A stretch of 64,000 nucleotides of DNA from the NCBI GenBank assembly GCA_025617745.1, contig CM046864.1, positions 26,536,199 to 26,600,198 on the forward strand. Reading direction: 5' to 3'. Shown piece by piece: positions 23,501-54,143 of this stretch. The position numbers and the translations under genes were made by a program. Every line of letters begins with the position of its first letter. The stretch's first letter is position 1. The stretch is from Heliocidaris erythrogramma. Its lineage: Eukaryota; Echinodermata; Echinoidea; Camarodonta; Echinometridae. The notes under the pieces were generated by a model. It was not told the origin of the DNA, did not search any database, and was given only the letters and a program-made list of their open reading frames with translations.

Positions 23501-26500
23501 TCATTAATATTCAAATTTATTCGTCACAAACAAGGAAACAATATATTTGGCATAAAATCCTTTTACAACTTTTTCAGCAAATATACAAAATATCACTTTA
23601 ACATACTTTAAAATTCATATAAAGTAAGAAATAGATATCGCACATTATACATACGACAAGAATACAAACGATTCAACATGAAATGTGTATGGCAAAGCAA
23701 AGGGAAACACACAACAATAGAAGATGTCATAATGCAGAGGAAACCAGATGTTGAACAGTTGGAGATAAAGGAAAAGCACATGAAAAGATTTGAAGGAACA
23801 GAATCAAAGTAAAGGAGGTAGAACCAAAGGCAAATGTAGGAATAATGAGAGAGGAAAGACAAACATAGAGTAAAACAAGAAGGTGATGGATAGAGCAGAT
23901 AAAATTAAGTTGTGAAAGATATGAAGGGGAGAAAGAAAAAGATTATTAAAAAGAGAATGAAAGGAAGAGGATGAGGGATGGAAAGTGCCAAGACATAGAT
24001 ATGATATATCATACATATTAATAGTTTTGTAACTCAGACTTCTTCAATTTTAGAATATTTACATATGACTCGAATATATTTCATATATTTAATATTAACT
24101 GGTTTAAAATGAAATTATCGATAGCCATTTAGTTTCAAACTATATCTAAATAATAAATAAGTGTGAAGGTAAAAAAGTAAGTATTTTATCTAAACCAAGA
24201 CATTATTATATATACACTATAATATCAATCATTTAGATAACCTCAAAATTCTAGCACTGAGGTATGGGGAAATACATACAATCTAATTTTAGTTGTATAT
24301 TGCTGTCAGAAAATGGAAATGCGAGCGATATATCTTTTGTGCCAAAAACGCATACAGGCATACTCATGCCACTAATTTATTTCATATTACTTCTCAGTAA
24401 TTTACCTAATTCAGCACTAGAGAAAATGAATGGATTTCTATGTTTAGCAAAATGTAGATCAATGTATGACTAATTTTCAACATCCTTTGTAAGTTGGATT
24501 AATATCACAAAATAGTAAAGGAAACGCTTTAAAGATTTAATTCTATGAAGCTGAAATGTAAAGTGAATATGTTTTCTTTCAAAATTACAGGTTTATATCA
24601 AATTTTATACTTCCAGATGTAAACAGAACAGACCAATTTCATGACAAACATGTGTTTTCCTTCATTTATTTTTATTTTTTAGCCTTTGATGGAAGGCACT
24701 TTTTCGCTTGAGTAGATCAATATCTACCAGTACGTGTGTTACCTTTTATCCTCTTAGAAACTGCGTCGTGTCCAAGCCAACATTATAATGTAATTTTGCT
24801 ACTGAATCATTCATTCTACATTCATTCTACATTTGTCAGCCCTATTCATCTATCAGTATTCATATACATATATGTGTTAAGAAACCTCAAACTTCATCAA
24901 AGCAACTGACAGCTATGCATGTTTGTACATTGAATAGATGTCTGAATCCTTGCTGCTCACATTTCAAGAATTCAATCCCCTGAATACCATAGAGACAATC
25001 ATACCTAAGTGTAGATACATGATCTAGCTTCCCTAGCAAGAACATTCACTAAATTTAATGAATCTGAAAGTAGAAAAAAAATCTGTATCACCAATACCTA
25101 AATCAAATTGCACTTGTAGTTCTTCAGCTGTGATAAGACAGTTAAAATTAGAATAATATTACAAAGGATTTTCTGTTCAAGTTGGAAAAGAAATCTGACT
25201 CTGAATCTGGAGAGACAAACACCTCAGGTAATGTAACAGAAAGGCCAGAGTCTTCCAAACTCCAGGATCTATAGGAATAGGACCATCAGACATAAAGTAA
25301 CAATTAACAGAACACATGACAACCACGGCCACATAACACACTTGCTATACTTACCTGTCAATCAGAATCTCTCAAAAACTTGTTTTCATTATTAAGTTGA
25401 CCATCCGTGAAGCATTCTGAAATGTAAATGAAAAGTGTTAGTATCAAGACAAAAAAAGACAAATTGATGGCTAATATCCATCAGCCATGTGACCATTACC
25501 AATCTGATTACTCAGTTATGGGGAAGATTTTTGTAGAAGTCCATAAGATCTGGCTGAGAAACCACAGGGGTTGCTCCTTCACAAAGGCTTACGAGATCTT
25601 GATACTTGCCCCTCGAAAGCTTAGGCCTACACAAATACAGCTTCTGGGGAAGCCCGACTGCCTGCATTGGCCTACGTCCGTGGCCTAGAGTTATTGTGAG
25701 AAAGTCTTCCTGGCAGTGAGAAACCTTAAAGAAGATTTTGTCTGGGAAGTCCTTGTGTAGGCGCACTTGCTTGAAGGTCGTCCAGTCAACAGATTCGCCT
25801 TCATCGGACGATCTCGTCCTCAGCATACCTAGAGCCTGAGAATACGATTTCCAGTCTAGGATATCTGAAGACTGGACACACTTCACAATGTTAGGGCCTG
25901 TGACATATCTGGCTCCCTTAATGAGACTTGCCAGATGAGATGGATGCAGAATCTCAACGGTTTGGGAAACCTTCTTCTCAATTACAGAGTGGATAGCATC
26001 ACACTCACTCTGACCATGATTTGTCTCAAAGAAATGGAAAGTGATACAATTCACATTTACTGACTCCCTCAAGAAAGCGATTGCCATGGATGGCAGAACC
26101 GAGTTCTTGTTTTGGCCACTGCATCCATCGCTAAAGAGGTCAACTTCCCTAACACCCATGCTATCTACATCACGAAGGTAATCAAGAAGATATGATGCTA
26201 CTTCACATGAGCCCCTCTTTGTTATCGTCTCATTTGAGAAATAGCAGATGCCATCCCTTGTACGTAAATCATACACTGTAAGGTTGTAACAGGCCAATCT
26301 GCGCTTATAGAAAATTTCAGATCTGTTAGACTTTGGAACATATATGACCAGATGAACATGGATTTGTTTTTGATTTTTGCTTACTCTGATTTTTGATGCT
26401 CCTAACTCGCTCAATTTCAGCTCTATGTTTCATGTATACCTCGTTCATAGAGTCTTTACCCGCACTGTGTGTATTCACGTTGTCTTCACATAATCCACAC

Positions 26501-29500
26501 ATATCCTTTTTTGGCCTATGGATTTTGTACTGAAGCATTTTGAATACTCTTTTGTAGGTACTCAAGGATGCACACTCTCCATATTCTTCAACAAACATTC
26601 TATGCATTTGAGCCCGTGTCAAATCAGAAGCTAAGTACGTATAAGAAGAAGAGGCACGGCAGTAGTGTGAGGGAACCCTGGGAAATCTGGTGAGATGCTC
26701 AACAATTTTTTCCTTTTGGGTTGGATCAAGTTTTTGTTTTCCTCCTCTCTTTTCACCTTTGAGCACACCGGACTGATTGTTCCTCTTTTCAAGCACTGTT
26801 TTCACCTGTCTGTCAGAAATCCCCAAAGTTGCAAGGAACATCTGCCTACACACTGGGAATTTCTGTCCTTCTGGTGAACAACGGGGCAAGAAGTAGGAAA
26901 TTGTCCGTTTCTTACGACCCCCCTTACCACAAGGCTTGCTCTCAAGATACCTTGCGAGCCACTCTCGTTGTAGATTCAAACTGCCTATGTCATAAAAAGC
27001 ATTCCGGATATTGAGCATCTCTTGATCGCTAATCAAAGAACACTTCAAATTTTTCATTTCACAGGGTAGAGTATTAGTATTGCATCGAGAACGAGAAAGA
27101 TGCCTTCTACCATCTACAAGATTCCCAGACTTCTCTGACCGATACCCTTCACCCTTGTTACGCATTTGCTTTACAATACGGTTTTTAGATCTTATGCTTT
27201 TTGATTTCTTTGCCAGAGGCTGCTCAGGCTGTTCAACTGTATCACTATTAAACCCATCAACCTCAAAATGTTCAGGGAAGAACACTTCCATGTGATCTGC
27301 ACATGGCTCACTACATTCAAAGTGGTCAAAACAGAGCAATGCGAGGCACCTATGGCATGCAGCAAATACCTCAATGTGGCACATGTGGCTCTGGCAGTGA
27401 GCTGGACCTGGAGGGATGTCATCAAGCGGTAAAGCACTTATTCCTGGTGCCTGAGGTGGGAGAGCAGTAGGTTTCATCAGCAATCCTGATGTCTGAGTTG
27501 GGAGAGTAGTAGGTTGCATCTGCAATCCTGATGCCTGAGTTGGGAGAGCAGTAGGTTGCACCTGCAATCCTGATGCCTGAGTTACTGGACCTGTTGAATA
27601 ATTATTATGAAAATATATTAGCCAACTAAATCATGGACATACAAAAATATCATCACAAATATTTCCCACCTCCGAGTCACTGATTGAAAAACACAGTACG
27701 TTTTAAGATAACATTATGGCATGCAGCAAATTTCTCACCATTATGATTCTCGCTTTGGCAAGAAGCTTGAGCTGAAGGGATCGGAGTACATGTAGGTTGC
27801 ATCTGCAATCCTGATGCCTGAGCTGGGAGAGCAGTAGGTTGCATCTGCAATCCTGATGCCTGAGTTGGGAGAGCAGTAGGTTGCATCTGCAATCCTGATG
27901 TTTGTGTTTGGAGAGCAGTAGGTTGCATCTGCAATCCTGATGCCTGAGTTGGGAGAGCAGTAGGTTGCACCTGCAATCCTGATGCCTGAGTTACTGGACC
28001 TGTTGAATAATTATTATGAAAATATATTAGCCAACTAAATCATGAACATACAAAAATATCATCACAAATATTTCCCACCTCCGAGTCACTGATTGAAAAA
28101 CACAGTACGTTTTAAGATAACATTATAGCATGCAGCAAATTTCTCACCATTATGATTCTCGCTTTGGCAAGAAGCTTGAGCTGAAGGGATCGGAGTACAT
28201 GTAGGTTGCATCTGCAATCCTGATGCCTGAGCTGGGAGAGCAGTAGGTTGCATCTGCAATCCTGATGCCTGAGTTGGGAGATCAGTAGGTTGCATCTGCA
28301 ATCGTGATGCCTGAGCTGGGAGAGCAGTAGGTTGCACCTGCAATCCTGATGCCTGAGTTACTGGACCTGTTGAATAATTATTATGAAAATATATTAGCCA
28401 ACTAAATCATGGACATACAAAAATATCATCACAAATATTTCCCACCTCCGAGTCACTGATTGAAAAACACAGTACGTTTTAAGATAACATTATGGCATGC
28501 AGCAAATTTCTCACCATTATGATTCTCGCTTTGGCAAGAAGCTTGAGCTGAAGGGATCGGAGTACATGTAGGTTGCATCTGCAATCCTGATGCCTGAGTT
28601 GGGAGAGCAGTAGGTTGCATCTGCAATCCTGATGCCTGAGTTGGGAGAGCAGTAGGTTGCATCTGCAATCCTGATGTTTGTGTTTGGAGAGCAGTAGGTT
28701 GCATCTGCAATCCTGATGCCTGAGTTGGGAGAGCAGTAGGTTGCACCTGCAATCCTGATGCCTGAGTTACTGGACCTGTTGAATAATTATTATGAAAATA
28801 TATTAGCCAACTAAATCATGAACATACAAAAATATCATCACAAATATTTTCCACCTCCGAGTCACTGATTGAAAAACAGAGTCCGTTTTAAGATAACATT
28901 ATAGCATGCAGCAAATTTCTCACCATTATGATTCTCGCTTTGGCAAGAAGCTTGAGCTGAAGGGATCGGAGTACATGTAGGTTGCATCTGCAATCCTGAT
29001 GCCTGAGCTGGGAGAGCAGTAGGTTGCATCTGCAATCCTGATGCCTGAGTTGGGAGATCAGTAGGTTGCATCTGCAATCCTGATGCCTGAGCTGGGAGAG
29101 CAGTAGGTTGCACCTGCAATCCTGATGCCTGAGTTACTGGACCTGTTGAATAATTATTATGAAAATATATTAGCCAACTAAATCATGGACATACAAAAAT
29201 ATCATCACAAATATTTTCCACCTCCGATTCACTGATTGAAAAACGCTGTACGTTTTTTAAGATAACATTATGGCATGCAGCAAATTTCTCACCATTATGA
29301 TTCTGGCTTTGGCAAGAAGCTTGAGCTGAAGGGATGGGAGTACATGTAGGTTGCATCTGCAATCCTGATGCCTGAGTTGTGAGAGCAGTAGGTTGCATCT
29401 GCAATCCTAATGCCTGATTAGGGAGAGCAGTAGTTTGCATCTGCAATCCTGATGTCTGAGTTGGGAGAGCAGTAGGTTGGTTCTGCAATCCGGATGCTTG

Positions 29501-32500
29501 AGTTAGGAGAGCAGTAGGTTGCATCTGCAATCCTGATGCCTGAGTTGGGAGAGCAGTAGGTTGCATCTGCAATCCTGATGTTTGTGTTTGGAGAGCAGTA
29601 GGTTGCATCTGCAATCCTGATGTCTGAGTTGTGAGCGCAGAAGGTTGCACCTGCAAAACTGATGCCTGAGTAACTGGACCTATTGAATATTTATTATGAA
29701 AATATATTAGCCAACTAAATCATGGACATACAAAAATATCATCACAAATATTTTCCACCTCCGATTCACTGATTGAAAAACGCTGTACGTTTTTTAAGAT
29801 AACATTATGGCATGCAGCAAATTTCTCACCATTATGATTCTGGCTTTGGCAAGAAGCTTGAGCTGAAGGGATGGGAGTACATGTAGGTTGCATCTGCAAT
29901 CCTGATGCCTGAGTTGGGAGAGCAGTAGGTTGCATCTGCAATCCTAATGCCTGAGTTGGGAGAGCAGTAGGTTGCATCTGCAATCCTGATGTCTGAGTTG
30001 GGAGAGCAGTAGGTTGCATCAGCAATCCTGATGCCTGAGTTGGGAGAGCAGTAGGTTGCATCTGCAATCCTGATGCCTGAGTTGGGAGAGCAGTAGGTTG
30101 CACCTGCAATCCTGATGCCTGAGTTACTGGACCTGTTGAATAATTATTATGAAAATATATTAGCCAACTAAATCATGAACATACAAAAATATCATCACAA
30201 ATATTTTCCACCTCCGAGTCACTGATTGAAAAACAGAGTCCGTTTTAAGATAACATTATAGCATGCAGCAAATTTCTCACCATTATGATTCTCGCTTTGG
30301 CAAGAAGCTTGAGCTGAAGGGATCGGAGTACATGTAGGTTGCATCTGCAATCCTGATGCCTGAGCTGGGAGAGCAGTAGGTTGCATCTGCAATCCTGATG
30401 CCTGAGTTGGGAGATCAGTAGGTTGCATCTGCAATCCTGATGCCTGAGCTGGGAGAGCAGTAGGTTGCACCTGCAATCCTGATGCCTGAGTTACTGGACC
30501 TGTTGAATAATTATTATGAAAATATATTAGCCAACTAAATCATGGACATACAAAAATATCATCACAAATATTTTCCACCTCCGATTCACTGATTGAAAAA
30601 CGCTGTACGTTTTTTAAGATAACATTATGGCATGCAGCAAATTTCTCACCATTATGATTCTGGCTTTGGCAAGAAGCTTGAGCTGAAGGGATGGGAGTAC
30701 ATGTAGGTTGCATCTGCAATCCTGATGCCTGAGTTGGGAGAGCAGTAGGTTGCATCTGCAATCCTAATGCCTGAGTTGGGAGAGCAATAGTTTGCATCTG
30801 CAATCCTGATGTCTGAGTTGGGAGAGCAGTAGGTTGCATCTGCAATCCTGATGCCTGAGTTGGGAGAGCAGTAGGTTGCATCTGCAATCCTGATGCCTGA
30901 GTTGGGAGAGCAGTAGGTTGCATCTGCAATCCTGATGTTTGTGTTTGGAGAGCAGTAGGTTGCATCTGCAATCCTGATGTCTGAGTTGTGAGCGCAGAAG
31001 GTTGCACCTGCAAAACTGATGCCTGAGTAACTGGACCTATTGAATATTTATTATGAAAATATATTAGCCAACTAAATCATGGACATACAAAAATATCATC
31101 ACAAATATTTTCCACCTCCGATTCACTGATTGAAAAACGCTGTACGTTTTTTAAGATAACATTATGGCATGCAGCAAATTTCTCACCATTATGATTCTGG
31201 CTTTGGCAAGAAGCTTGAGCTGAAGGGATGGGAGTACATGTAGGTTGCATCTGCAATCCTGATGCCTGAGTTGTGAGAGCAGTAGGTTGCATCTGCAATC
31301 CTAATGCCTGAGTTGGGAGAGCAATAGGTTGCATCTGCAATCCTGATGTCTGAGTTGGGAGAGCAGTAGGTTGCATCTGCAATCCTGATGCCTGAGTTGG
31401 GAGAGCAGTAGGTTGCATCTGCAATCCTGATGCCTGAGTTGGGAGAGCAGTAGGTTGCATCTGCAATCCTGATGTTTGTGTTTGGAGAGCAGTAGGTTGC
31501 ATCTGCAATCCTGATGTCTGAGTTGTGAGCGCAGAAGGTTGCACCTGCAAAACTGATGCCTGAGTAACTGGACCTATTGAATATTTATTATGAAAATATA
31601 TTAGCCAACTAAATCATGGACATACAAAAATATCATCACAAATATTTTCCACCTCCGATTCACTGATTGAAAAACGCTGTACGTTTTTTAAGACAACATT
31701 ATGGCATGCAGCAAATTTCTCACCATTATGATTCTTGCTTTGGCAAGAAGCTTGAGCTGAAGGGATGGGAGTACATGTAGGTTGCATCTGCAATCCTGAT
31801 GCCTGAGTTGTGAGAGCTGTAGGTTGCATCTGCAATCCTAATGCCTGAGTTGGGAGAGCAGTAGGTTGCATCTGCAATCCTGATGCCTGAGTTGGGAGAG
31901 CAGTAGGTTGCATCTGCAATCCTGATGTCTGAGTTGGGAGAGCAATAGGTTGCATCTGCAATCCTGATGCCTGAGTTGGGACAGCAGTGGGTTGCTTCGG
32001 AAATGCTGATGTGTGAGTTGCTGGACCTGCTGAATAGTTATAATGAAAGTTATTAGTCAACTAAATCATGGACATACAAAAGACAATATTGTCCACCTTC
32101 TGGGTCACTAATTGAAAAATACAGTTTAAAGATGACATTATGAGCAAGTTGCTCACCATTGTGATTTTGGCTTTGGCAAGGAGCTTGATCAGAAGGGCTC
32201 GTACATGTAAGTTACATCTGTAATCCTACGGTATGAGTTGTGACGTGATATGTTATTCTAGGAGAGTCACTCAAAAATTGGTTGTCAATTAATGCAAATG
32301 GTCTGTTATCTTTAATCACTTGAAATATGCACAAAAGAATAAAATCCTGTCATACTTACATATCTTTATCTGCTCCTCAGAAAGACTGCAAATCGTTGGG
32401 ATTGAATTGATTTTCCTAACTGTAACACAGGAATTAATCAAGGAAACACAAGAGCAATACCATACTGATTAGAACTTTAATTTTATCCTTAACATATTCA

Positions 32501-38275: not shown

Positions 38276-39199
38276 ACAAAGTCAGAAATATAGTCAGGCA
38301 GCCCAGTGACTTTTGATCAAACGAACGAGGTACCAATATCTGAGTATTGGAACATCCCGGGGGAACCTAGTATATGCAAATATGGACGTCTGCCGTGGTC
38401 CCTCTGCTGCGTGTGGCCCCAGGGGCCCGTTAAAATGGGCCCAAAAATGCATTTGATCAAAGATTATAGGTACCACATGAAACTCATGGTAAATATATTG
38501 GTTCATCACACACTTTACAGAATGGGCCTTGCCAGACAAATTTTCTGCTGCTTAGGGCCAGCCAGACGCCCCCAAAGGGCCCCAAAAATTGGCCTCGATC
38601 AAGTGGAGGAGATACCACTTGAAACTAATTTCAAATGAATACATGAATACCACAAAGCACAGAATGGCCCATGCCAGACAAATTTTCTGCTGCAAAGTGC
38701 ACGCCAGACGCCCCCAAAATACGCCCCAAAGGTCCAATATGGTAGCTTTGACCCAGTTTAAATATTCAAGGTACCACCAAAAACTAATTCGGAATGCTGA
38801 GGTTAATCTTACAGACTATGGAAATCATACTGACAGACACATTTTTCTGCTGCCCACACTATGAACACAATGACAAAAATTGCTCTGGTAGACAAAAGAA
38901 CATTCCTTCATTGCTATTTTGTAAAATAAGCAGAACAGGTTAATATGCATGTGACACCTGTTCTACATATTTTTACATAATAGCAATGAAGGGATGTTCT
39001 TTTGTCTACCAGAGCAATTGTGGAAGGTACCATAAGGAGCTGTATATTTTGTCCGCTTCTTTGCTCGCCATGTTCATAGTGCCAAGGGCCCCCAAAATTG
39101 GGGGCCCCGATCAAACGTAGAAGATACCACTTGAAACTAATTTCAAATGAATACATGAATACCACACCACAAAGCACAGAATGGCCCATGCCAGACAAT
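38276..39199. mobile_element. Foreign repeat block inside the deleted transposon
   Basis: Homology to the larger copy stops near 38276 and resumes at about 39199 inside a repeat exon. The block has tandem units sharing CATGCCAGACAAATTTTCTG and GATACCACTTGAAACTAATT (about 38600-38740 and again 39119-39198). It also has a hairpin with arms of about 62 bp (38879-38940 and 38956-39018). No protein is recognised. Confidence 0.6.
38879..39018. repeat. Inverted repeat of about 62-bp arms with a 15-bp spacer
   Basis: The arm ATTGCTCTGGTAGACAAAAG onward pairs with the inverse ending CTTTTGTCTACCAGAGCAAT. A shorter outer match (CACTATGAACA with TGTTCATAGTG) extends the palindrome to about 38857-39080. 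Confidence 0.8.
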
Positions 39200-40999
39200 C
39201 CTGATGCCTGAGTTGGGAGAGCAGTAGGTTGCATCTGCAATCCCGATGCCTGAGTTGGGAGAGCAGTAGGTTGCATCTGCAATCCTGATGCCTGAGTTGG
39301 GAGAGCAGTAGATTGCACCTGCAATCCTGATGTCTGAGGTACTGGACCTGTTGAATAATCACATGTATTATGAAAATATATTAGCCAACTAAATCATGGA
39401 CATACAAAAATATCATCACAAATATTTTCCACCTCTGAGTCACTGATTGAAAAACGCAGTTTTAAGATAACATTATGGCATGCAGCAAATTTCTCACCAT
39501 TGTGATTCTGGCTTTGGCAAGAAGCTTGATCTGAAGGGATGGGAGTACATGTAAGTTGCATCTGCAATCCTGATGCCTGAGTTGGGAGATCAGTAGGTTG
39601 CATCTGCAATCCTGATGCCTGAGTTGGGAGATCAGTAGGTTGCATCTGCAATCCTGATGCCTGAGTTGGGAGATCAGTAGGTTGCATCTGCAATCCTGAT
39701 GCCTGAGATGGGAGAGCAGTAGGTTGCATCTGCAATCCTGATGCCTGAGTTGGGAGAGCAGTAGGTTGCATCTGCAATCCTGATGCCTGATTTGGGAGAG
39801 CAGTATGTTGCACCTGCAATCCTGATGCCTGAGTTACTGGACCTGTTGAATAATTGTAATGAAATATATTAGTCACCTAAATCATGGACATACAAAAATA
39901 TCATCACAAATATTGTCCACTTCCCTGTCACTGATGGAGAAAAAAAAGTTTTAAGATAACATTATGGCATGCAGCAGGTTTCTCACCGTAGTGATTCTGG
40001 CTTTGGCAAGAAGTTTCATTTGAAGGGATGGCAGAAGGTTGTACCTGCAATCCTGATGCCCGAGTTGGAACAGCAATAGGTTGCATCTGCAATCCTGATG
40101 CCTGAGTTGAGAGAGCAGTGGGTTGCTTCGGACCTGCTGAATAGTTATAATGAAAGTTATTAGTCAACTAAATCATGGACATACAAAAGTCATCACAAAT
40201 ATTGTCCAACTTCTGGGTCACTAATTGAAAAATACAGTTTAAAGATGACATTATGGCATGCAGCACGTTTCTCACCATTGTGATTTTGGCTTTGGCAAGA
40301 AGCTTGATCTGAAGGGATGGGAGTACATGTAGGTTACATCTGTAATTCTACGGTATGAGTTGTGACGTGATATGTTATTCTAGGAAAGTCACTCAAACAT
40401 TGGTTGTCAATTAATGCAAATGGTATGTTATCTTTAATCACTTGAAATATGCAAAAAAGAATAAAATCCTGTCATACTTACATATCTTTGTTTGCTCCTC
40501 AGAAAGACTGCAAATCTGGGGATTGAATTGATTTTTCCAACTGTAACACAAGAATTAATCAAAGAAACACAAGAGCAATACCATACTGATTAGAACTTTA
40601 ATTTTATCCTTAACATATTCATACATTTTACAGTGGATTTATTTCAACCAAAACTTTCCCAAAATAATTTTTCTTCATTCTGCATGATGATAACATCGTA
40701 AGTCACATAATCTTATTCTTAGTACATTGTATTTAGAGTTTACTAAACAACAAAAAATCTACAATCACGTGGTAGTCGAAATCGAAAAAAAAATTGCTTT
40801 ATGCATCCATCATAACTACACATTGTGCAGTTTTGAAGAGGTCAGGTAATACAATTTTCAATTGTATTCTTTTTAATAAGTAAATAAATATCAAGTTCAC
40901 TTTTTGATTAATTTACCAAAGTTAGCTAACGGAAGATTTTCATCCTCGTCACTGTCATCTGCATCTCCAGCATTGTCAGTGTCATCATCTTCTATATTC

Positions 41000-46949: not shown

Positions 46950-49900
46950 ATGCCTGGATCACTAAGTTTATCACCACAGGAGCGATTTCTCAAGAGATTA
47001 AAGAAACTTGGCACCCATGTTGATCCTGAAAAACAGACTTTCATGTGCGAAAAAGACGGCAGATTATACTTTCGTGTGGACTCCGTGAAATTCGAAGGTA
47101 TGTTGACAATGAATAATTTTTTTTTATGTATGGTGTACTGTTAATTGTTAATCACGTGTTTATCTTAACATGTACCGGGCATTGTGCCGAATGCAGTGCA
47201 TGCCAATAATAATTAATATATAGGCCTAGGCCTAGGCTAAACATAGTCATTGACAGTGGTCCGATGTATTGAGTTTTGTGTTTGTGTTGTAGGCTATCTA
47301 GTAAGAGGGGTATCCGCGCACCCCCCCCCCCCCCCAAATGACAAATACTAAATTAATACTATAAAAAGTATAAAGGAGAATTAACACTAGAATATAATGA
47401 ATGAATGAATTATTTTAGGCATAATCGTGATATAGTCCCCACATCACAAAGTGGGGATTATTAGAATCAGACCTACCAGAAAACGGCCTTTTCCTTGCGT
47501 ACGCGTTGACTGACGAAGCATGAATGAGCGCGCGCACACAAGTACCCTTTCCGAACTCCCTATAATATGGTCGTGATACTGTCCCAACGCTATGGGAAAT
47601 CGAGTTTGTTTTCTACGGCAGTGGGGATTATTCCAACAGTATAGTTATACTCGTGATACTGTCCCCACGCTATGGGAAATCGAGTTTGTTTTCCACGGCA
47701 GTGGGGATTATTCCAACAGTATAGTTATACTCGTGATACTGTCCCCACGCTATGGGAAATCGAGTTTGTTTTCCACGGCAGTGGGGATAACTCCAACAGT
47801 ATAATATACTCGTCATATTGTCCCCTCGCAACGAGAAATCTGATTCGTTTGGAAACGTGGTGGGGACAGTTTCCCAAAGGTTGTTAATAAACTGACATGC
47901 ATTGACTTCCACTTCTATGAAATTAAATTGTGAAATTCATTAATTATGCAAATTTATTCAAAATTAACGAAAAATGCTACTTCTCCTCTATTTCACATCA
48001 GATTTTGAATCTGATTGTTTTATCTGACGGGGCTTGGTGAGGGCTTCCAATTTTCTACACAGAATTTCGAAATTCATTAATCATGCAAATTTATGCTAAT
48101 TTATTCATCAACAAAAATGCATTAGAATCACAAAATATTAACTTAATTAGTAATTTCTTACATTTATCTAGAAGGATCTATCAGAAATTACATATATTAA
48201 CGCCATTCCACAGATATACACTTCCGGCGAGCCGGACATATTATGCATCTCGTAATTTATACTAATTCACTTGTTTTTGTCGAGTTAATGTATTTTTTTT
48301 TTTTTTTTTTTACCGTGGCACATCCATAAAAGAGAAGGGGGTGGTACGTCAGCTACGGGGGAATGTACCCCTTGCAATAAAATCCATGTTGAGATTTGTT
48401 TTGATTCTATTTTTTTTTCAGCAGTATATGTGACAGTCTCATGGGGGGGGGGGGGATAAAAATCTATGTTTAATCAGTTTTTATTTGTTTAGTTTTGGTA
48501 TTTGTTCTTTCAGTATGTGTGACAGACTCGATCAGCGTGGCAATTTTCGGGGAGGGGGCAGCAACAGGGGAGATGTGCCTCTTCCAAGAAAAATCAATGT
48601 TTGATGATTTGAAAAAAGATGTTTTTTTTTTTTGTATTAATGTTCTTTCATTATGTGGGACAGACTCATGGTGGCAATTTTCGGGGGGGGGGGGGGGGGG
48701 GGGGGGCGGATTCTGGGGCTAGTTGTTCAAGGGGGTGTGTGGTGGGGGTAGTAGTTTGGGGGATCAAATGTCGGGGTAATGTCATTGGGGGATAAAACTT
48801 CATTCGGGGGGGGGGGGGGGGGGGGGGGAGGATGATATCCTGTAGATCGTCATCGGGGGTGGGGGGGGGGGTAATTGTCCTGAGGGGGTAGTTGTCCTAG
48901 AATCCTTATCTTATCTCATTTTACCATGCATATTTTCATATTTCACCTGTCAAATATACTCATCAAAATATAAGATATGGACGACATTTCATGCACATCG
49001 TTCTGATAACATTGCAATTCTAGTTCATCTTGCTCTTCATTGAAAATAATCTTTCTCCCATCCTTTTCCTTTTCCCCTTCATCCTCCATCATCCTGCACT
49101 TACATCACACGGGGTTGAGACTGTGTGTGTGTTGACTTATACAGGGACCGGCCGGGGTAAAATGCTCGCCGGCATGCTTCGGTCCTACGGCCCTACTTTG
49201 CATGCATCTACATTTAGCGCCAAAATACTGATGATGGTACCAGTGTTACCCATTGGCTATCTTCAACTGTGCCGGACTGAAATCTACATGTATTTGCATT
49301 GAATTAAAATTTACCGCCAAGTATAAAGTATGCGGTCGTTCAATGTTGGAATCCCCCTTCTCTCTCGTTCGTTCAATTACGTCAAGCAATAGTTCCCCTT
49401 TCACCATCCCACCTCCTCTCTGTCTCTCTCTCTCTCTCTCTCACTCTTTCTATAGATGTATCTCCCTCTCTCTCTCTCACTCTCTCTATAGATGTATCTT
49501 CCTCTCTCTATAGATGAATCTCCCTCTCTCCCTCTCTTTCGCTCTTGCACTCTTTTTACTCCCTGTTAATGTATTCAAATAAGTATGCAAATCCCGCGCA
49601 CGTGCCGTGTCCGATGAGACTCTGGCAAGCGGCCGATGTTTGACTGATTGATCGGATTATCTTAACCTTTTGGTTCAATTTAAGTTTTCTTAGAATTATG
49701 CAGTTCATCTAATAGCTGATATTACTCAGAATATCTCTTTGACCTTTTTTAGTTTATTACTTCCCCCATTCATTTTGTACAGTATCGCTGTGCGGAGCAG
49801 ACGATGCTAGGCAGAGTTTGCCAGAGTACGCTATAGTGGGCGTGAATGTGAATAAATTAGTAAATAGTCATATTTCCCGCCATTTTAGGCTGCAATCAGG

Positions 49901-51962
49901 AATCTCCACTGATCAGCATGATCAATGGGGCCTGTTGATTGGTCGAAATGTGAATTTTTGAGGGGTGATTTGGATCCTCAAAAGACATATAAATAGGGTA
50001 TATAGGGCCTACATTGCAGTTGTGTTTCATGTTACTTTGCTATCATCATGGCCGGCAACTTTCGAAAACGAGTTTCTCCTCAAGAATGCAGTATCGCAGA
50101 TTTCTACAATCCTTGGAGCTTCCACTCCCTCTTCTTGTCGGATCCAGAGTCAATCCTCGAGTGGATGAAAGACCAACGCCTCCTTGCTGAAACGATGATC
50201 TGCGAAGAGTGCGGGAGGGAGTGCAAGTGGACATCGCGGAACGAGAAGCATCATGGGTTCACATGGCGATGTCGTCGAAAGGAGCATCGTGAGAAGGAGT
50301 ACAGCATCACGCGATACTCGTTCTTTGACCGTAGCCATTTCGTCATCCAAGACCTCCTCGAATTTCTAAGGACTTTCCTCCTGGGCGGTTCGCTCAAAGG
50401 TTGTTCCGTCCAAGCAGGAATGGACTACAAGAAAACGTCAGTCGATTGGGCCAACTTCACCCGCGATATTTTCAAGAAGTTCGTCGACACGCAATACAAT
50501 GCCCAACAGCCAGTCCAGCTCCAGGGCGAAGTCGAGGTCGACGAGTCCCTCTTCGGTCGACGTTGTAAGTACCATCGTGGAGATGGAACGAAAGGCGTGA
50601 AAGTATGGGTCGTCGGACTCGTGGAAAGAGCTACCAACAAACTCGTCCTCTATCCTGTAGATGACAGGACTGAGAAGACACTCCTGGCGATCATCAAGCG
50701 TCACGTCATCCCGGGTTCGCTGATCTACTCAGACGGATGGAGTGGCTACAGTCGTCTGAACGACAACGGATATCACCACTTCTCCGTGATCCACAAGGAC
50801 CAGTTCAAAGCGGTGTTCGAGAACGAAGCCACAGGAGAGAGGAAGGAGGTATGCACCAATAGAATAGAGGGGGCGTGGAAACACGCCAAAGATCACTTCA
50901 GGAAGATAAATGGGACAAAGATCTCCAACTTCGAGGCACACCTGGCGGAGGTAATATGGCGCAACCACATAAGGGGCCAGAACATCTTTCAGGCCTTCTT
51001 CGTTCTCCTCCGCGAGTGCTATCCTCTGACTGGTCCACCCCAACTGGAGATCAGAGAACCGCTGTTTAGTACGTGGTCGACCTGCAACGCGGACAGCTCT
51101 CTCCAAAGAATCAGCTACGCTGAATTGGACGAGGACGAGGACGACGGCGGCGAACACCAGACCAGCCATGATAACAACCGGGATGCTCTTCCCCTGCGTA
51201 CCTCTACCCCAGAGCAACCAGGGCCCAGCATGACCTCTCAGCGATCCAAGAAACGAAAGCGGTCATCAACGAGGCGAGTCTGCCATCCAGACGGGTATCG
51301 ACAAGTCAACCCTCCCTCAACAAGTGTGCAGCAGCAAAGGCGGTCGATCCAAAACGACTACGGAAGAGAGGCTTTCGTAAACTGGTCCTCGGACGATGAT
51401 TTCGAGGGAACATGAGTTACATAACTCATTAAAACCCAAAAGGCTCTTTTCAGAGCCACCACAACTCCAAGAAAGATTTTAGATTCACTCTTCTTAAAAA
51501 AAAAAAAAAAAAATCCCTATTCAATTTTGAAAGCTCCTGTCCTACATTTTCCTCTTCTTACATGTACCATAATCTTTTAAAATACCCTTTGTTTCGATCT
51601 CTCTCTCTCTCTCTCCCAACCCTCTCCTATTTTCCGCAAGTGTAATAGCAACATTATAAAAAACAAAAACAAAAAAGGGGGATTAGTATATATGAAGCCC
51701 CCGCCCCCCCCCCCCAAAAAAAAAAAAACAAAAACGAAAATTGCCACCATGCGTCTGTCCCACATAATGAAAGAACATTAATACAAAAAAAAAAAAACAT
51801 CTTTTTTTCAAATCATCAAACATTGATTTTTCTTGGAAGAGGCACATCTCCCCTGTTGCTGCCCCCTCCCCGAAAATTGCCACGCTGATCGAGTCTGTCA
51901 CACATACTGAAAGAACAAATACCAAAACTAAACAAATAAAAACTGATTAAACATAGATTTTT

Positions 51963-51996
<34 letters not shown>

Positions 51997-54143
51997 ATGA
52001 GACTGTCACATATACTGCTGAAAAAAAAATAGAATCAAAACAAATCTCAACATGGATTTTATTGCAAGGGGTACATTCCCCCGTAGCTGACGTACCACCC
52101 CCTTCTCTTTTATGGATGTGCCACGGTAAAAAAAAAAAAAAAAAAATACATTAACTCGACAAAAACAAGTGAATTAGTATAAATTACGAGATGCATAATA
52201 TGTCCGGCTCGCCGGAAGTGTATATCTGTGGAATGGCGTTAATATATGTAATTTCTGATAGATCCTTCTAGATAAATGTAAGAAATTACTAATTAAGTTA
52301 ATATTTTGTGATTCTAATGCATTTTTGTTGATTATGAATAAATTAGCATAAATTTGCATGATTAATGAATTTCGAAATTCTGTGTAGAAAATTGGAAGCC
52401 CTCACCAAGCCCCGTCAGATAAAACAATCAGATTCAAAATCCGATGTGAAATAGAGGAGAAGTAGCATTTTTCGTTAATTTTGAATAAATTTGCATAATT
52501 AATGAATTTCACAATTTAATTTCATAGAAGTGGAAGTCAATGCATGTCAGTTTATTAACAACCTTTGGGAAACTGTCCCCACCACGTTTCCAAACGAATC
52601 AGATTTCTCGTTGCGAGGGGACAATATGACGAGTATATTATACTGTTGGAGTTATCCCCACTGCCGTGGAAAACAAACTCGATTTCCCATAGCGTGGGGA
52701 CAGTATCACGAGTATAACTATACTGTTGGAATAATCCCCACTGCCGTGGAAAACAAACTCGATTTCCCATAGCGTGGGGACAGTATCACGAGTATAACTA
52801 TACTGTTGGAATAATCCCCACTGCCGTAGAAAACAAACTCGATTTCCCATAGCGTGGGGACAGTATCACGACCATATTATAGGGAGTTCGGAAAGGGTAC
52901 TTGTGTGCGCGCGCTCATTCATGCTTCGTCAGTCAACGCGTACGCAAGGAAAAGGCTGTTTTCTGGTAGGTCTGATTCTAATAATCCCCACTTTGTGATG
53001 TGGGGACTATATCACGATTATGCCTTATTTTTTAATACTGCAGAAATCCGCCATGAAGATGAACATTACATTTACAATGGAATAGTGTAGGCCTATCTAC
53101 ATCGTTCAAAATTTGCTTGTCTGAGAATTTTGGAGGAAAACTAGACCCCCAAAAATGTGATAACCTTTTTTTTTTTTCTTTCTTTTTTTTTTTTGCTTGT
53201 CAGAGAATTTTCAGACATTTCGGACAGGTACAAAGTTAAATCATGTAGCAACGTTTTGAGAAGTTTTTTGTATTTGGGGCTGAAAATTGATTTGGTTTTT
53301 AAACTTTACTTTTAGTAGCGAGTTCGATGAAACGGCACTTTCTGAATATGTATCTGTTAACACGCGAAACTCTATGTTGGAAAATCGCTGATAAAAAACT
53401 TTTCCAATGCTATTTTAACTTTTTGAAGACATCTGCGTGTAGCCAGATAGTTGCTTGTTCTTTTGATACCAAATATTTGACCGGAATCTCCGGAAAAGTG
53501 GAAATAGAGAGTATTGAAATCCTCCGACTTCGGAACACTACGCGATCTCGTTTTCACTGGTGGCCGCCATTTTGAAAATAATTCTGACTGACCTCTGCAT
53601 TTTGATACTACTTCGGTTCATCAAATTTGCGTAAGGCATGTTGTAATAGTGATCATATGCAACTGGAGATCGTAAGCTTTCATTTGGTACCAAGATTGCC
53701 GGGTTTTGGAGCATTTTTCCTGTTTTTCAAGGCCAGAGAATATTAAGTTTCAATTTGGGGCTATATTTTGCGTACTTTTGTGCCAGAAAACCTAAAAATG
53801 AGGAATGAAGGAGGGCGAGAAACCCTATGGAAACCCATATTTTTAGAAACTTTGAAGTTTTCTGAATCTAATGGTATGCAATGATAATGGATTCATGCTA
53901 GCGCATAGAAGCGCACTACACTAGAAAAAAAAAGGACACATCAGGAAAATGAGGAATCTCGTAGATTTTGCTTAGTAATATTGTACATGTATCTCGTTTT
54001 AGTCGTTACTTTCTATACTGACTATAGCCAAGTGGCATAAGATTTGTAGTTTAATTGTCTTGTATTTAGGAAATAATACCTTCAGAAAATAATAACATAT
54101 ATAAATTATAATATATATTATATATATATATTATATATATATA

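Follow-up and report, generated by a model that had tools for sequence, protein, structure and literature searches.

Transposase genes of a Merlin element and of three further DNA transposon superfamilies in a sea urchin genome end in histone-type 3' signals

Our analysis supports a model in which the transposase gene of a Merlin element of Heliocidaris erythrogramma very probably ends in a working, poly(A)-independent 3' signal of the replication-dependent histone type, which would tie expression of the transposase to S phase and early cleavage. The two parts of the signal are present in their expected positions and on the strand of the gene, they are conserved among copies and match those of host histone genes, and the host genome encodes an SLBP domain. 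The arrangement is wider than the single transposon of the original prediction and occurs in four superfamilies of DNA transposons. The features of the window (the whole stretch of 64,000 nucleotides that was analysed) are as follows.

47410..47417, no strand: left target-site duplication, TTATTTTA
47418..53024, plus strand: whole Merlin element, family A, 5607 bp, start GGCATAATCGTG, end CACGATTATGCC (self-comparison)
47418..48683, plus strand: left terminal inverted repeat, about 1.27 kb (self-comparison)
47566-47884: four 80-nt tandem units in the left terminal inverted repeat, the fourth unit 61% like the reference
50048..51415, plus strand: Merlin/IS1595-type transposase ORF, 455 aa, single open frame (ORF list, Pfam)
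51413..51428, plus strand: hairpin TGAGTT-ACAT-AACTCA overlapping the TGA stop (RNA fold, copy comparison)
51442..51457, plus strand: histone-type stem-loop GGCTCT-TTTC-AGAGCC, putative SLBP site (Rfam RF00032; RNA fold)
51468..51476, plus strand: histone downstream element CAAGAAAGA, putative U7 site, 10 nt 3' of the stem, also found behind host histone genes
51735..53024, minus strand: right terminal inverted repeat, about 1.29 kb (self-comparison)
53025..53032, no strand: right target-site duplication, TTATTTTT, a 7/8 match to the left copy TTATTTTA

The gene had been described as an intact Merlin-like transposase, and this description is borne out: the 455-residue single frame contains DDE_Tnp_IS1595 (Pfam; E 2.1e-23; 83.4 bits, cutoff 27) and lies in an element with terminal inverted repeats and a target-site duplication. 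In the self-comparison of the window the inverted arms are 97.7% identical, and the outermost 40 nt at either end are perfectly complementary. Both termini, read inward, are GGCATAATCG with the terminal GG present, and the target-site duplication is 8 bp long with one mismatch. Elsewhere in the window, many minus-strand ORFs with PTALPTQASGLQMQ-type repeats occupy 25512-32060 and 38914-39876, with longer ORFs beside them at 25512-27567, and a tRNA-Arg (TCT) lies at 1211-1282; an equal-score tRNA is found at 6344-6415 of L009, near the Merlin copy of that locus.

The histone-type signal sits inside the element, between the transposase gene and the right arm. A perfect GGCTCT-TTTC-AGAGCC stem-loop had been predicted 26 nt past the stop codon with AAAA and ACCA flanks, and it reads exactly so at 51442-51457, with 26 nt between the TGA of the 455-residue ORF and the stem, AAAA before it and ACCA after it. 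The accompanying claim of a downstream element at histone spacing also holds: CAAGAAAGA follows 10 nt past the stem and is identical to the host histone element. The covariance-model scan proposed at the time places a Histone3 (RF00032) match at 51437-51482 with 39.8 bits against a gathering score of 34 (E 3.4e-8 for the window), the sole other Rfam match over cutoff in the 64 kb being a tRNA.

That this signal is an accident of a single copy, or of chance, is ruled out by its genome copies and by pattern controls. The stem pattern GGCYCTTTTNAGRGCC has 131 matches in the 1.06-Gb genome against 1 for the reversed control, and the stem-loop followed within 4-16 nt by AAGAAAG occurs at 66 sites against 0 for the reversed pattern; copies lie on many contigs, and we give next to no credence to chance or an assembly artefact. 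We read 53 of these 66 sites and found 25 at histone genes, 23 in DNA transposons or their derivatives and 5 in unclassified repeats (stem matches that lack the downstream element, L098 and L099, were left out of the counts). The view that such signals hardly occur outside histone genes thus fails in this genome. The 23 transposon sites comprise 13 in Merlin A (transposons and derivatives), 4 in Merlin B, 3 in Tc1 elements of two families and 3 in pogo elements of two families, L084 being assigned to pogo by its resemblance to L032 around the stop. The remaining 13 were judged by their matched string: for 4 of them it equals, or is closely related to, that of a transposon or repeat site, and for 9 it is histone-like. 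No recognisable ordinary host gene appeared among the 53 sites read, although the 5 unclassified ones, which have no Pfam match over cutoff, may be such. Four of these five (L079-L082) belong to one repeat family, in which a small ORF (about 85 aa) ends in GGCTCTTTTAAGAGCC plus CAAGAAAGA, and L079 seems to contain tandem copies of it; the fifth (L088, C12:50860000-50861400) forms with C12:50888181 a two-site repeat with a 174-aa open frame, a stem-loop and then CAAGAAAGA.

A genome search with RF00032 met a large number of candidates, of which 75 were scored, 73 of these being over cutoff, and 56 of the 75 were examined. Histone genes precede 28 of these sites. Merlin A accounts for 15 (7 of these without a transposase match in the examined sequence), Harbinger family 1 for 7 (4 at the transposase and 3 at a convergent second ORF), Harbinger family 2 for 2, a single Tc1-like family for 2 and a pogo-like family for 1, and one site (L096, C20:23260123) stays unclassified. 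The host histones include a sperm-type H2B with SPRK repeats, an early-type H2B and a sperm-type H1, which we take to be sea urchin types. Their stem-loops and downstream elements are nearly identical to those of Merlin A; one host 3' end, for example, reads GGCTCTTTTCAGAGCC-ACCAATTTTC-CAAGAAAGA, the same ending as in the Merlin transposon. We found no histone match within about 1.5 kb on either side of transposon loci L031-L033, L036-L045, L050, L053 and L055-L058, and rejected capture beside a histone cluster for these loci.

A protein search of the whole genome (1.06 Gb, 26 contigs) with the transposase returned at least 87 matches, and 20 regions were then fetched. The gathering threshold of RF00032 is exceeded in 7 of these 20 related loci, and these are the family-A loci, 7 of 7; in one of them (L020) the downstream element is CAATAAAGA instead of CAAGAAAGA. 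Family B (L014, L015, L016 and L021) shares 55-59% amino acid identity with the window transposase (55% by tblastn for L014 and L015), and all 4 fetched loci have GGCTCTTTTGAGAGCC and then CAAGAAAGA, 9 nt past the stem compared with 10 nt in family A. The stop-to-stem-loop distance in family B, measured in L016 alone, is 49 nt, and the Histone3 score is 28.7 bits, below the cutoff of 34 (L014 and L016, scanned at a lax threshold). Loss of the stem and element from other copies would have counted against the original prediction; in the DNA, the fetched A copies and family B keep both. Among the listed transposase matches that reach the C-terminus, 12 of 12 Merlin matches have a sense stem-loop within 150 nt downstream, and all 12 belong to A or B because the C-terminal filter leaves no others.

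The nine other fetched Merlin loci (L018, L019 and L022-L028, several of them broken) have no such stem-loop behind the gene, which rules out that all Merlins are alike in this signal; the sole Histone3 match among the nine is a weak one in L026 (19.1 bits), on the opposite strand and away from the gene. A quick tree of partial proteins with a midpoint root splits A and B from the remaining Merlins with a support of 0.69. A single gain on the A+B branch followed by retention is the simplest history, and is likely but not firm, since the support is just 0.69. Long inverted pairs occur in 5 of the 7 fetched family-A loci (L010, L011, L012, L013 and L020, and not L009 or L017); at the settings of our inverted-repeat search no terminal inverted repeats were found in family B. 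Upstream of the gene, A and B both have a TATA-like box, and their comparison revealed no convincing shared histone promoter. Seven Merlin-A derivatives (L031, L036, L039, L044, L045, L053 and L074), which were found via the stem-loop, keep it without a transposase match in the examined sequence, and most of them also keep the last codons of the gene.

The carriers outside Merlin are identified by Pfam domains over cutoff: DDE_Tnp_4 in two Harbinger-type proteins (L055, L064), DDE_1 in two pogo-type proteins (L032, L085), one of which also has HTH_Tnp_Tc5, and DDE_3 in two Tc1-type proteins (L072, L087). In a coordinate test, C-terminal transposase matches were compared with listed stem-loop sites on the same strand up to 150 nt downstream. 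Among the matches listed, a sense stem-loop follows 6 of 51 Harbinger matches, 3 of 11 pogo matches and 5 of 8 Tc1 rows (at least 40% identity, reaching residue 205), and opposite-strand stem-loops within 150 nt number 0 in all four superfamilies. This first test used six hand-picked distant pogo rows, and the count was repeated more widely over 68 pogo and 107 Tc1 rows on contigs C1-C14, where the plain-stem list is complete. Here rows are pieces, several per copy, and a sense stem lies within 600 nt downstream in 5 of the 68 pogo and 7 of the 107 Tc1 rows listed; among the same rows, no stem lies elsewhere or on the other strand within 600 nt. Of the five stem-bearing pogo rows, three come from a distant lineage (27-29% identity) and have their stems further off, 399, 399 and 477 nt beyond the match; apart from these and some broken pieces, no more than 70 nt separates the stem from where the transposase match ends.

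Individual Harbinger copies illustrate the distribution at finer scale. A second Harbinger-2 copy (C4:20834105, L063), whose match ends at residue 434 and falls outside the C-terminal filter, also has the stem-loop, and a Harbinger-1 copy of 98% identity (C14:29393743) has no exact stem behind its transposase. The Harbinger element at L055, L056 and L057 consists of two convergent genes, each ending in its own GGCCCTTTTAAGGGCC stem-loop, the second gene having no Pfam match. Most listed Harbinger, pogo and Tc1 rows lack the signal in the coordinate tests, which suggests several gains. The histone-type signal is therefore a property of particular families, scattered among relatives that lack it. 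Apart from these carriers, a dense one-strand array of repeated Tc1-like transposase pieces lies at C5:41394998-41408687 (G000).

We regard it as improbable that the stem-loop is a relic, taken up by chance when an ancestor acquired the 3' end of a histone gene and carried since as a passenger without a role. A source would have been at hand, given how nearly identical the stem-loops and downstream elements of the host are, and the seven of the 15 examined family-A Rfam sites that lie in derivatives without a transposase match fit a passenger. However, the signal persists in both A and B although the remainder of the untranslated region has diverged: when the first 110 nt of the two 3' UTRs are compared, the best local alignment falls exactly over the stem-loop and downstream element (score 44; the highest of 5000 dinucleotide shuffles reached 37), and outside the signal they hardly align. 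Its confinement, in four superfamilies, to the sense orientation and, with the exceptions given above, to the 70 nt behind the transposase match likewise argues against a passenger, as does a stem that is paired throughout the families.

This pairing was compared across a set of 12 sequences (8 transposon genes, 2 unclassified repeats and 2 host histones), in all of which six of six stem pairs form. Six of them have C-G at pair 4 and six have U-A, and the other five pairs are invariant; the two versions mirror those of host histone stems. Mismatched stems could have entered the comparison, because the pattern by which most sites were collected allowed Y and R at pair 4. A test for conservation with compensatory changes had been proposed. 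Stem and element are kept, but only a single pair of the six varies, and this one double change is no excess over shuffles, 360 of 500 of which reach the same number. A compensating change, G-C to C-G, does separate Merlin A from Merlin B in the second hairpin, at the stop codon, which reads TGACTT-TCAT-AAGTCA in family B (L014, L015, L016 and L021). A hairpin at or after the stop and upstream of the histone stem-loop is also present in many host histone loci (L070 and L089, for example). Between the stop and the stem-loop, folding is stronger than in shuffled sequence (p < 0.05) for 12 of the 27 histone genes and 4 of the 9 transposon genes compared, counts in which relatives are not independent and the stops used for four histone genes (L030, L035, L048 and L054) are probably wrong. 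Transposon 3' UTRs may thus resemble those of host histones in the second hairpin too.

A perfect 6-bp palindrome is also a feature of DNA, and the element is full of inverted repeats; the stem-loop might accordingly act as DNA, for example as a site for the transposase or a host factor. We consider this highly improbable, as the loop and downstream element fix its orientation, no reverse stem-loop lies beside the listed transposase rows, and the loop and flanks fit the histone RNA consensus.

Reading the signal as RNA raises the issue of the machinery that would recognize it. Two adjacent pieces on C16 encode PF15247, the SLBP RNA-binding domain, each of them over cutoff; a stop letter falls inside one of the matches, as happens where an exon ends. 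No U7 snRNA exceeded the Rfam cutoff in the genome, and searches with U7 motif patterns gave 0 matches, or no excess over the control (5 matches against 4). The missing U7 is presumably a failure of detection, because the host histone genes carry a conserved downstream element.

It is rather unlikely, in our judgement, that the stem-loop serves mainly as a transcription end or as a backup beside ordinary poly(A) sites, with expression that is not limited to S phase. Harbinger elements give this idea some ground: their downstream elements are weaker (CAAAGAAA, CCAAAAGA), A[AT]TAAA occurs 53 and 95 nt past the stem-loop of the first gene, and AATAAA occurs 13 nt past that of the second gene in L055, so some of these mRNAs could be polyadenylated. 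There is also a parallel in Caenorhabditis elegans, whose histone genes, according to passages of PMC1924863, keep polyadenylation signals past the hairpin, perhaps for termination. The downstream elements of Merlin, pogo and Tc1, however, match those of the host, and a pattern search of the 384 nt 3' of the Merlin A stem-loop found no A[AT]TAAA.

We therefore favor a model of histone-type processing. Against it weigh the sub-cutoff Histone3 score of family B, the missing U7, the single varying stem pair, the weaker Harbinger downstream elements, the Harbinger-1 copy without an exact stem and the many relatives that lack the signal. Passages of PMC1924863 describe how histone transcripts are processed: the hairpin is bound by SLBP, which also controls translation, the downstream element is paired by U7, and the transcript is cut past the hairpin. 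By analogy, we envision that the stem-loop of the transposase pre-mRNA would be bound by SLBP, that the U7 snRNP would pair with CAAGAAAGA, and that the transcript would be cut a few nucleotides past the stem to yield an mRNA without a poly(A) tail. Production and translation of the transposase message would then follow those of histone mRNA and be highest in S phase and during the rapid early cleavages.

Histone mRNA is abundant in cleavage embryos, and cut-and-paste elements gain copies by leaving replicated DNA for unreplicated DNA. S-phase timing would be selected because of this gain. Escape from silencing linked to poly(A) could be a further benefit. Extending the argument, we lean towards the view that unrelated superfamilies repeatedly and independently took over the histone 3' end, which would restrict transposase synthesis to periods of DNA replication, above all in early cleavages; replication-coupled mRNA metabolism would then be a niche in which selfish DNA turns cut-and-paste into copy gain.

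The original prediction knew of no described transposon with such an arrangement, and our search agrees: none with a histone stem-loop was found in a full-text literature search assessed by titles and the starts of abstracts, its scope being published articles outside preprints and most subscription journals. Histone-type 3' ends are generally regarded as almost confined to histone genes; the components described here are known, and to our knowledge it is their combination and its recurrence in four superfamilies that is new. If the signals are used, they would link transposition directly, at the molecular level, to S phase in an animal, they would mean that messages other than those of histones can depend on the histone pathway in nature, and they would make the old question of copy gain by cut-and-paste elements through replication timing testable in a classic embryo.

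Compared with the 3' end of replication-dependent histone mRNAs (RF00032), the Merlin signal has the same 6-bp stem, 4-nt loop, flanks and CAAGAAAGA 9-10 nt on, and differs in being attached to transposase genes of mobile elements instead of a histone. Passages of PMC8101967 define membership of the Merlin superfamily by an IS1595-type transposase, terminal inverted repeats with a terminal GG and a target duplication of 8 or 9 bp, and the window element shares the DDE_Tnp_IS1595 transposase, the GG termini and the 8-bp duplication. Its terminal inverted repeats of about 1.27-1.29 kb are longer than the 24-462 bp given there for described Merlin elements, a range that we take to be descriptive and no condition of membership. 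It differs also in its histone-type 3' end, a feature absent from the main text of PMC8101967, where 'histone', 'stem-loop', 'hairpin', 'UTR' and 'polyadenyl' occur 0 times. The PIF/Harbinger, pogo and Tc1/mariner elements of the same genome likewise encode DDE transposases and include particular families with a histone-type stem-loop past the stop, whereas most of their listed relatives are without one.
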